From the NCBI RefSeq assembly GCF_001742305.1, contig NZ_MJAT01000038.1, positions 1 to 64,000 on the forward strand: DNA of 64,000 nt, given 5' to 3'. A program made the translations under genes and the position numbers. Below, piece by piece: positions 19,706 to 58,019 of this stretch. Numbering within the stretch: position 1 is the stretch's first letter; each line of letters opens with the position of its first letter. The DNA comes from Desulfuribacillus stibiiarsenatis (lineage in GTDB: Bacteria; Bacillota; Bacilli; Desulfuribacillales; Desulfuribacillaceae). The notes beneath the pieces were generated by a model. The model saw only the letters and a program-made list of their open reading frames with translations, had not been told where the DNA came from and ran no database searches.

Positions 19706-21409
19706 TTACTCATCTCCTCTCATCATATTCTCAACTGGAGCGCCTGGTGGAATGAAAGGAAATACGTTTTCTGATTGTTCAACAACAAATTCTAACACAC
19801 ACGGACCCTCAAAAGCTAATGCTTCATCAATGATTTGCTCTGCCTCTTCCGGAGTAGTTGCACGGAATGCTTTAATGCTATAAGCTTCAGCGAGTTTCAC
19901 AAAGTCTGGATGTCCTTTAAAGATTGTTTGTGAGTAGCGCTTTTGGAAGAACATTTCTTGCCATTGACGCACCATTCCCAAAGCCCCATTATTCAGGATT
20001 GCAAGCTTTAATGGAATCTGATGTTCAGAGATTGTCGCTAGCTCTTGAATATTCATTTGCACACTACCGTCACCGGAAATACAAATTGTCTGGCGTTCTG
20101 GACGCCCAAGCTGTGCACCGATTGCTGCAGGTAAGCCATAGCCCATAGTTCCCAAACCACCAGATGAGAAGAACTGATTCGCTTCATTAAATGTATAATA
20201 TTGCGAAGTCCACATCTGATGCTGCCCTACATCGGTAGCGATAATGGCTTTACTATCTGTCTTTTGACAAATTGTGTCAATTACAAATTGCGGACGGAGC
20301 TTTCCATCACCTTTCAAGTATGTGAGAGGATACTCACTCTTCCAAAACTTAACTTGTGTTCTCCATTCTTCAATGTCCAAAGGCTCAACATGTTCGATGA
20401 GCGCTTCCAATACATTCTTTAAATCGCCCACGATTGGAATATGTGCAGAAATATTCTTACCAATCTCAGCAGGATCAATATCTACATGAACAATTTTCGC
20501 GTGTTTTGCGAATTCGTCAAGCTTTCCTGTCACACGATCATCAAAACGTGCACCAAAGTTTAATAGCAAGTCACACTCATTGACAGCCCAGTTTGCCGCT
20601 ATAGTACCATGCATCCCTAACATTCCTAAATGTAACTCATCACTTCCTGGGAATGCACCTAACCCATTAAAGGTTGACACAACAGGAATGTTCGCTGTTT
20701 TAGCTACTTTATATAATTCATTGGAAGCATTGGAACGGATCATTCCCCCACCAGTCATAATCAATGGTTTTTTTGCTTCTTTAATTACCTTCGCTAGCTT
20801 TTTAATCTGCCCTTTATTTGGCGCATACGTAGGATTATAGCTTCGAATGTAGACGCTGTCTGGATAAGAAAATTCGGCTAATTGCACGCCTACATCTTTA
20901 CAAAAGTCAATCAGAACTGGCCCTGGTCTCCCAGTCCTAGCAATATGAAAGGCTTCTTTCATTACACGAGGAATCTCTTTAATATGCTTTACCAGATAAT
21001 TGTGCTTTGTAATTGGCATTGTAATACCTGTAATATCCGCTTCTTGGAAAGCATCTGTTCCTAATAGGTCTGTCCCTACTTGGCCTGTAATACATACAAG
21101 TGGAACTGAGTCCATATAGGCTGTAGCGATTCCAGTTACAAGATTCGTTGCCCCTGGTCCTGAAGTTGCAATACATACTCCGACTTTTCCAGTCGCTCGA
21201 GCGTAGCCATCGGCTGCATGAATTGCACCCTGCTCATGTCTAGCTAGAATGTGCTTTAACCCACTATCATAAAGAGCATCATACACCTTCATAATAGCTC
21301 CCCCAGGGTATCCAAATACAAGATCTACGCCTTCTTGCTTTAGACACTCAATTACCATCTGTGCTCCATTGATTTTTTCTTTTTCTGTTTTGGCTCCACT
21401 AGCACTCAT
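19706..21409 (-). CDS. ilvB: Acetolactate synthase large (catalytic) subunit
   Basis: The protein has 567 residues and is a thiamine-diphosphate enzyme that joins two pyruvates, or pyruvate and 2-oxobutyrate. The catalytic Glu is in RHEQGAIHAADGYARATG near residue 58. FAD- and substrate-site stretches follow, and the ThDP/Mg motif GDGSVQMNIQELAT ... NN is near residue 440. The start at 21409 follows GAGAGGTG by 9 nt; a GTG four codons earlier lies in that site. It is separated from ilvD by about 145 bp without an obvious promoter and overlaps the ilvN ribosome site. Confidence 0.96.
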   Translation of the reverse strand: MSASGAKTEKEKINGAQMVIECLKQEGVDLVFGYPGGAIMKVYDALYDSGLKHILARHEQGAIHAADGYARATGKVGVCIATSGPGATNLVTGIATAYMDSVPLVCITGQVGTDLLGTDAFQEADITGITMPITKHNYLVKHIKEIPRVMKEAFHIARTGRPGPVLIDFCKDVGVQLAEFSYPDSVYIRSYNPTYAPNKGQIKKLAKVIKEAKKPLIMTGGGMIRSNASNELYKVAKTANIPVVSTFNGLGAFPGSDELHLGMLGMHGTIAANWAVNECDLLLNFGARFDDRVTGKLDEFAKHAKIVHVDIDPAEIGKNISAHIPIVGDLKNVLEALIEHVEPLDIEEWRTQVKFWKSEYPLTYLKGDGKLRPQFVIDTICQKTDSKAIIATDVGQHQMWTSQYYTFNEANQFFSSGGLGTMGYGLPAAIGAQLGRPERQTICISGDGSVQMNIQELATISEHQIPLKLAILNNGALGMVRQWQEMFFQKRYSQTIFKGHPDFVKLAEAYSIKAFRATTPEEAEQIIDEALAFEGPCVLEFVVEQSENVFPFIPPGAPVENMMRGDE

Positions 21410-26824: not shown

Positions 26825-27901
26825 CTAGTGGATAAATAGGTCATTTTTATGAATAACAATAATTCCTTTTGGTCGAATTTCTTGTTCTAATATGCCTTTA
26901 ATCTCCGCACTGGAAATGCTGACAACGCCCTTCCCTAATTCTTTGCCAGATTCACTACAAATTTCAATGACATTTCCGCTACAAAAATCACCTTTTATTT
27001 CTTTTACCCCAGCGGCTAAAAGACTTTTGTTATCATGATATATCGCATGTTCTGCACCATGGTCGACAAAAATCTTACCCAGTGGCTTACTTGCAAAAGC
27101 TAGCCATTGCATCCTATTTTTTAACGTCTTTTGGGCAGGAAGAAACTTCGTTCCAATATTCTCATGCTCTAAGAAAATCTTCTTCAACACCCACGGTATT
27201 GAACCCTTTGCAATATATGTAGTAGCACCGCTCAGTGTCGCAATTCTCGCCGCTTCGATTTTTGTGATCATACCACCGGTACCAGCCTTGGTACCAGCAC
27301 CTTTAGCCATTTGTTGAATTGATTCATCAATTATGTCTACAACATCTAGCTTCTTCGCTTCTGGATTATGCTTCGGGTGATCCGTGTAAAGACCATCTAT
27401 ATCTGTTAGAACAAGCAGTGAATCGGCCTCTACAACACCTGCAACAAGTGCTGCAAGTCGATCATTGTCACCAAATTTAATCTCATCCACTGCTACTGTA
27501 TCATTCTCATTCACAATTGGAAGAATGCCGTTTTGCAATAAAGTCTGAAACGTATTTTTGGCATTCACGTAGCGTTTTCGGTCTGCAATATCTTCATTGG
27601 TTAATAAAATTTGTGCGACATTGATGCCTTCGCATTGGAATAGTTGTTCATAACGGTGCATTAATAGACCCTGACCTACAGCAGCTGCTGCTTGTTTCTG
27701 TGGTACGAGAAGCCCCTCGCGCTCCCAACCTAACTTACCAAGCCCTGCCGCAACAGCACCAGAAGATACTAACACCACTTCAAACCCTTTACGCATGAGG
27801 TACGCTATCTGTGTTGTCAGCTTTTCCATTTGATCGTGGGCTATAATTCCATCGGCCGTAAGGCTACTACTTCCTACTTTTATTACTACTCTATTCTTCA
27901 T
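26825..27901 (-). CDS. proB: Glutamate 5-kinase with PUA domain
   Basis: The protein has 358 residues. The N-terminal amino-acid kinase domain (VVIKVGSSSLT ... VSSGAVAAG ... NENDTVAVDEIKFGDND ... GTGGMITKIEAA) phosphorylates glutamate; the C-terminal PUA domain (about 265-345) is common in proline-inhibited kinases. The ATG at 27901 has AGGAG upstream, placed at the edge of a dispersed repeat. A start 11 codons earlier lies inside the repeat and is unlikely. Any promoter must lie within or beyond the repeat pair at 27917-28235, so the repeat is probably part of the proB leader, in antisense orientation. Confidence 0.96.
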   Translation of the reverse strand: MKNRVVIKVGSSSLTADGIIAHDQMEKLTTQIAYLMRKGFEVVLVSSGAVAAGLGKLGWEREGLLVPQKQAAAAVGQGLLMHRYEQLFQCEGINVAQILLTNEDIADRKRYVNAKNTFQTLLQNGILPIVNENDTVAVDEIKFGDNDRLAALVAGVVEADSLLVLTDIDGLYTDHPKHNPEAKKLDVVDIIDESIQQMAKGAGTKAGTGGMITKIEAARIATLSGATTYIAKGSIPWVLKKIFLEHENIGTKFLPAQKTLKNRMQWLAFASKPLGKIFVDHGAEHAIYHDNKSLLAAGVKEIKGDFCSGNVIEICSESGKELGKGVVSISSAEIKGILEQEIRPKGIIVIHKNDLFIH

Positions 27902-27916
27902 TTTCGTCCATCTCCT

Positions 27917-28036
27917 ATAAAGAAAACTTAGCATTCGCCAAGCCTTAGGCGAAGAGAATGCTTTAGTTGCACTTATTTCGCAGCTTGGCGATACTTATCT
28001 CTCACTTATAAAGTGAGAATTAGTAAAGCCGCTAAG
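27917..28036 (+). repeat. Dispersed structured repeat, type 1, copy A
   Basis: The first 65 nt are identical to copy B (28037-28101). They begin ATAAAGAAAACTTAG, then a hairpin, then CTTTAGTTGCACTTATTTCG. A second conserved block AGCTTGGCG follows, and an outer stem CTTATCT/AGATAA encloses a short hairpin (CTCACTT-ATA-AAGTGAG). It codes for nothing visible and lies against the proB ribosome site. Copy B has a much longer arm in place of the short hairpin. Confidence 0.8.
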
Positions 28037-28235
28037 ATAAAGAAAACTTAGCATTCGCCAAGCCTTAGGCGAAGAGAATGCTTTAGTTGCACTTATTTCG
28101 CCTGTACCCCTTGCGGGTGAAGCTTGGCGACACTTATCTCCCACTTTCACCTAAAGGTACGTAATGGTTCTAACTATTTTAAAAATAGAAGAACCATTCT
28201 GTAGAAGTGGGAGTATTAATAAAGCCGCTGAGATA
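28037..28235 (+). repeat. Dispersed structured repeat, type 1, copy B
   Basis: It sits in direct tandem with copy A. Relative to A it has a 19-nt insertion after the 65-nt identical block (small ACCC/GGGT hairpin), and its arm is expanded: nested pairings CTTATCTC/GAGATA, CCACTT/AAGTGG, AATGGTTC/GAACCATT and CTATTTT/AAAATAG. This expanded arm is nearly identical to that in the copy at 57.9 kb. The right end is CCGCTGAGATA. Confidence 0.8.
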
Positions 28236-39842: not shown

Positions 39843-39949
39843 GATAAACAAAACTTGACATACACCAAGTCCTTCTGACGAAGGTGAATGCCTTAGTTGC
39901 CGTTATACTATCTACATTTAAAAACTTATACTTTCTGATAGTATAAAAA
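39843..39949 (+). repeat. Dispersed structured repeat, hybrid of types 1 and 2
   Basis: The left half aligns with type 1 (GATAAACAAAACTT ... CCAAG ... GAATGCCTTAGTTGC, compared with GATAAAGAAAACTT ... CCAAG ... GAATGCTTTAGTTGC). The right half is the type 2 hairpin TACTATCTACAT ... CTTTCTGATAGTATA, shared with 46.7 kb. It fills the gap between mutS2 and pxpB. Confidence 0.7.
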
Positions 39950-57841: not shown

Positions 57842-58019
57842 TATCTCAGCGGTGTTACTAATACTCCCACTTCTACAGAATGGTTCTTCTATTTTAAAAA
57901 TAGTTGGAACCATTACGTACCTGAGGTGAAAGTGGGAGATAAGTGCCGCCAAGCTTCGAAATAAGTGCAACTAAAGTTCAGATGGAATAAAAACTCCATC
58001 TGAACTAAGTTTTCTTTAT
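57842..58019 (-). repeat. Dispersed structured repeat, type 1, copy C (inverted)
   Basis: In minus orientation it starts ATAAAGAAAACTTAG, as copies A and B do, but the first hairpin is wholly different in sequence (AGTTCAGATGGA ... TCCATCTGAACT) yet still perfectly paired. Then CTTTAGTTGCACTTATTTCG, AGCTTGGCGGCACTTATCTC and the expanded arm are nearly identical to copy B, ending CCGCTGAGATAA. The stop codon TAA of the CBS-domain gene lies within its first bases. Confidence 0.8.

Follow-up and report, generated by a model that had tools for sequence, protein, structure and literature searches.

Palindrome-associated elements of IS200/IS605 (PATEs) are non-autonomous elements with terminal hairpins that have no inverted terminal repeats and do not duplicate their target; they insert 3' of a short T-rich motif, and base pairing joins a guide-like sequence near the hairpin to the cleavage site (PMC5934647, PMC7290912). 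The repeats bcr1-bcr3 of B. cereus are short, dispersed and MITE-like, often lie in UTRs or between genes and carry a TTTAT motif (PMC6542083, PMC3446304). Pneumococcal BOX elements are modular, with fixed ends and variable internal hairpin modules (PMC3049150), and the REP/BIME sequences that occur with TnpA-REP are palindromes located outside genes, in which a short tetranucleotide next to the hairpin is conserved (PMC8266576). Here, we describe a tandem pair of structured repeats in front of proB of Desulfuribacillus stibiiarsenatis, located in a window (the whole stretch of DNA that was analysed) of 64,000 nucleotides. With a probability of roughly 55%, both units of the pair are copies, arranged in tandem, of a short mobile DNA element that is non-autonomous and behaves as an IS200/IS605 PATE does.

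A sequence-only reading of the window had described a noncoding tandem repeat with a common left block, in which one copy has an extra 19-nt hairpin and a long nested arm and the other a short arm. All of this was confirmed. Positions 27917-27981 and 28037-28101 are identical over 65 nt, the AGCTTGGCG... block (27982-28007 versus 28121-28146) is 92% identical, and the longest open frame does not exceed 51 codons. The outer stem TATCT/AGATA proposed in the same reading is absent from minimum-energy folds. The element reads along the minus strand, as do the flanking genes proB and thrB. With unit boundaries drawn from the tandem junctions and one empty site, copy B extends from 28233 to 28038 (196 nt, TCTCAGCGGC...TTTTCTTTA) and is followed head-to-tail by copy A, from 28037 to 27918 (120 nt, TCTTAGCGGC...TTTTCTTTA). 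Copy B contains a long arm 1 (28138-28213, minus strand; CTCCCACTTC...GAAGTGGGAG, in which a GGTTCTTC hairpin is nested), the optional 19-nt module CACCCGCAAGGGGTACAGG (28101-28119, minus strand), which of the pair only B has, and a 3' hairpin, H2, of type II sequence (28051-28081, minus strand; GCATTCTCTTCGCC...GGCGAATGC). In copy A, a short arm 1 (28001-28017, minus strand; CTCACTTTATAAGTGAG) is combined with the same 3' hairpin as in B (27931-27961, minus strand). None of 200 shuffles folded as well as either copy (z = -5.9 for B and -4.8 for A). By the rule derived from the empty site and the guide/end data described below, the putative right cleavage site of each is CTTTA (minus strand): at 28038-28042 in B, directly before the start of A, and at 27918-27922 in A, where a single base separates it from the Shine-Dalgarno sequence of proB, AGGAGATGG (27916-27908, minus strand), which the repeat end adjoins, as had been noted. 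Both copies precede proB (glutamate 5-kinase; 26825-27901, minus strand), which shares their strand and probably starts at 27901, judging from its ribosome-binding site. The pair is sense-oriented in the leader, as a minority of copies are, and its terminator-like hairpin is weak; it is conceivable that proB expression is affected.

Copies were searched by BLAST and then with R1, a covariance model based on 38 copies; the sequence context of this genome was taken as stretches around the copies. In the draft genome (3.12 Mb), R1 matched 114 3' modules, and E was < 1e-4 for about 105. The approximately 100 related copies bear out the description as a dispersed repeat and exclude chance for the proB pair. 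Two main types share a fixed 3' frame, AAGTGCAACTA-hairpin H2-AAGTTTTCTTTA. Type I starts with TCTCAGCGGCG and has a short form of about 126 nt; type II starts with a small hairpin, for example ACTATCAGAA...GATAGT. Among type I copies with the common H2, a long or short arm and the presence or absence of the 19-nt module occur in all four combinations (7, 10, 2 and 24 copies), and the occurrence of the 19-nt module in other copies is independent of arm length; modules have therefore been exchanged or gained repeatedly. Judged from their sequence, the proB copies look like chimeras, in which the 5' half of type I is joined to the H2 of type II. Tandem arrays have 3-6 units; one, on contig C36 of G000 (19895-20303), consists of three tandem type I units and a fragment. 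A type I copy is also nested within the hairpin of another element (L024), and H2 arms contain nested hairpin inserts of about 50 nt, of two different kinds (L005, L141; L087, L126, L133, L142). Elsewhere in the window are the 3' module of another copy, a TAAC...GTTTA variant (39844-39905, minus strand), and a type I copy with a long arm (57842-58019, plus strand). In a related subfamily, AAGTGCGACTA...AAGTCTTCTTTA (L086 and L212), the foot of the stem shows a compensatory change from A-U to G-C.

A covariation check on all copies in the genome had been suggested, and the 3' hairpin indeed covaries. When a hand-drawn 20-pair structure was laid over 89 distinct 3' modules, of which most came from other genera, 91% of the cells were paired. 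Two-sided changes in H2 affected 14 of the 20 pairs and 112 cells, compared with 38 ± 4.6 in shuffles, and slid versions of the structure gave at most 68 two-sided cells and at most 53% pairing. The alignment came from MAFFT, with no fitting to the structure; the sequences had been chosen by their frame, so that the frame pairs are under-tested. Such strong folding and covariation, together with a terminator-like hairpin and T tail on the top strand, would also suit a functional RNA family, a regulator or terminator dispersed by happenstance. A new RNA family had indeed been proposed as an alternative, and of this the covarying structure and the absence from Rfam stood: Rfam 15, also at permissive thresholds, gave chance matches only, and a literature search for the frame sequences returned only chance strings in unrelated papers. 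However, most type II copies lie directly 3' of a terminator, in its transcriptional shadow, which makes an RNA gene less likely. G-U pairs are only slightly more frequent than A-C in the 3' modules (65:43, p = 0.04) and give no argument for RNA. Furthermore, no common downstream gene was seen, and a close relative is without the element at the same locus. Altogether, we regard a dispersed functional RNA as quite improbable.

This close relative provides a view of the insertion itself. In Desulfosporosinus sp. I2 (L211) two tandem copies are present, and its congener G421 (95% identity) has neither. The empty site, GGTCTCTTTTTAG/TAACG (borders are marked by slashes), reads straight through (TTTTTAG/TAACG), and the occupied site reads TTTTTAG/TACTAG...CTTTA/TACTAG...CTTTA/TAACG. 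The insertion is exact, the target being neither duplicated nor shortened, and is found where the T-run of a terminator ends. It is the one clean empty site found, and is of type II; at L208 the 'empty' loci of congeners are too diverged between genes to define borders. At another locus (L234; L323 in G405), two Desulfosporosinus species have an identical element in flanks that are 93% identical, which may reflect slower change or conversion, and at that terminator a third species carries a copy that has diverged.

The left flank of the copies is variable (GAT, AAT, CAT, TTAA, TTAC) and the right end is constantly CTTTA(T). Type I copies are inserted 3' of TTA(T), mostly in gene leaders, and type II copies behind a T-run plus a purine (TTTR). 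Most type I copies are flanked by TTAT on both sides, as expected of a classical MITE moved by a DDE transposase with TTAT as target duplication. This explanation was already disfavoured and is highly improbable: the left and right border tetramers disagree in several copies, no terminal inverted repeats are visible by eye, and there is no duplication at the type II empty site. The TA ambiguity at both borders of that site would fit movement as a double-stranded circle, recombined site-specifically at a core of one or two bases (T or TA) by a putative recombinase. This has been suggested for bcr1-bcr3, whose TTTAT-carrying repeats were linked to a 'site-specific recombination-like mechanism' (PMC6542083), and the lack of a Y1 enzyme in several carriers would be in line with it. 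On the other hand, the left border has different bases in different copies (GT, AC, GC, AT), which do not form a fixed core, the IS110-type recombinase considered as mobiliser (PF01548) is absent from this genome, and the hairpins and their covariation are left unexplained. We consider recombination of a double-stranded circle unlikely.

The four bases before H2 change together with the 3' end: among 49 de-replicated copies from this genome and its family neighbour G001, 30 have TAAG with CTTTA, 12 have TAAC with GTTTA and 7 are different, the copies of other genera having been found by a CTTTA pattern and hence giving no test of this covariation. TAAG/CTTTA and TAAC/GTTTA resemble the guide/cleavage pairing of IS608 (PMC5934647), but the covariation, with its two main states, could equally reflect the base of the 3' stem. 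No guide was identified at the left end, where one would be expected 5' of the first hairpin.

Taken together, the family is dispersed, structured, non-autonomous, mobile and not in Rfam. The copy number, the frame, the covariation, the exact insertion without duplication, the tandem and nested copies, the guide/end covariation and the exchange of modules were all observed here. As to the route, we infer a single strand and an HUH enzyme. The single strand would fold into hairpins set apart by the fixed frame, and an HUH-type enzyme acting in trans would cut on the left 3' of the T-rich TTTR or TTA of the host sequence and on the right 3' of the element's own CTTTA, the latter being selected through pairing with the TAAG guide. 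The excised strand would then re-insert behind another such site, without target duplication. The element end, a hairpin followed by TTTTCTTTA, resembles the target, a terminator with its T-run, so that new copies could land behind old ones.

According to gene and terminator calls made by a simple script without annotation, 35 of 46 type II copies in this genome lie behind a predicted intrinsic terminator and the upstream gene is co-oriented in 38:6 cases; type I copies run against the neighbouring genes (36:10). On the nearly complete chromosome of G156, with the contig start assumed to be the replication origin, 34 of 37 type II-like copies point away from the contig start in each half, as leading-strand genes do. 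In this genome, by contrast, 18 of 23 type I copies are opposite to the leading strand as defined by GC skew. A lagging-template model therefore fits type II only; the orientation of type I is opposite to that expected from IS608, unless co-oriented insertions were selected away. It is tempting to speculate that terminator-like activity of the top strand could select against sense type I copies in leaders.

Carriers were searched for an enzyme. Y1_Tnp is absent from this genome and from 4 of 15 other carriers (G001, G281, G125, G207). A transposase of the IS200/IS605 kind with the same ends had been anticipated; at 30 Y1 loci of carriers, R1 found no module and no Y1 gene had these ends. With the gene absent here, a Y1 transposase sharing the element ends was rejected as mobiliser. 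That no enzyme was found lowers the claim to PATE membership and leaves the evidence for mobility untouched. What stood of the assignment to PATEs or MITEs are the dispersed, tandem and nested copies, the absence of inverted terminal repeats and target duplication, the insertion 3' of a T-rich motif, the guide/end covariation and the empty site; a PATE in the strict sense is not supported, with no transposon with the same ends and no detectable Y1 in this genome, and with no left guide identified. Group IIC-like reverse transcriptases have a preference for terminators. Retro-insertion by such an enzyme would explain the terminator targeting of type II, and a group II intron reverse transcriptase is indeed encoded in this genome. 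But this locus (contig C6, L315:230-1830) is ordinary and intron-like, with flanks of its own that Rfam does not recognise and no module nearby, which led us to reject it as mobiliser; moreover, type I copies do not use terminators and the Rfam search revealed no group II motifs in the element. Retro-insertion is thus very unlikely. The second of the two reverse transcriptases of this genome (contig C1, L314:1081-2649) is weakly similar, below cut-off, to the antiviral DRT4 family and is also without a module.

The family of the proB element matches the anatomy of PATEs as listed above, with a guide-like sequence at the right end only. It differs in that no parent IS with its ends was found, carriers may lack a Y1 transposase, hairpin sequences are freely exchanged and a left guide was not located. 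By description, it shares with bcr1-bcr3 the short, dispersed and MITE-like nature, the frequent position in UTRs or between genes and the TTTAT motif; however, bcr1 is described as specific for the B. cereus group, whereas the family studied here spans several classes of Bacillota, and blastn of the element gave no match to a B. cereus plasmid. BOX was compared by its modular principle. Unlike BOX, the family swaps arms at fixed positions, targets terminators and shows guide/end covariation. With REP/BIME it has in common palindromes outside genes and a conserved tetranucleotide near the hairpin, but it is longer and multi-hairpin, the proB element is without the hairpin-linked GTAG motif, and TnpA-REP, of the same Pfam family as Y1_Tnp, is not encoded in this genome. 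A tentative and rather doubtful further step would be to see here an uncatalogued class of gene-less Bacillota elements, recognised by structure rather than sequence, with freely exchanged hairpins and terminator- and leader-targeting types, and moved by an undescribed enzyme.

If the PATE-like reading holds, a phylum-wide mobile repeat has been missing from Rfam. Its natural variation would be a built-in test of guide/cleavage pairing. One is also led to ask by which enzyme elements with hairpins alike in structure, but not in sequence, are moved. The occurrence of both insertion habits within a single genome, one behind terminators and the other in leaders, opens target choice to testing, and genes with a copy in their leader, proB among them, may be altered in expression.

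In a sample of 398 genomes from the phylum, a strict pattern for the 3' module, AAGTGCAACTAN{22,50}AAGTTTTCTTTA, matched 15, which belong to 13 of 267 genera, with up to 43 matches per genome; the reversed pattern gave 0 matches in the same 398 genomes. Named carriers among the matches listed are Desulfosporosinus, Natribacillus, Pseudalkalibacillus, Gracilibacillus, Sporolactobacillus, Terrilactibacillus, Aneurinibacillus and others. Phage carriage was not found in IMG/VR or phage genomes. Two plasmid matches, weak and of type II, added Sporomusa and Radiobacillus as carriers. Type I is far rarer and was found in this genome, its family neighbour G001 and a MAG of another family (G154), whose copies are 97% identical; since this MAG is 7% contaminated, horizontal transfer of type I is not claimed. 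In the carrier genus Desulfosporosinus, D. metallidurans has a match to the TwoAYGGAY RNA just under the gathering score (L192:2831-2992).
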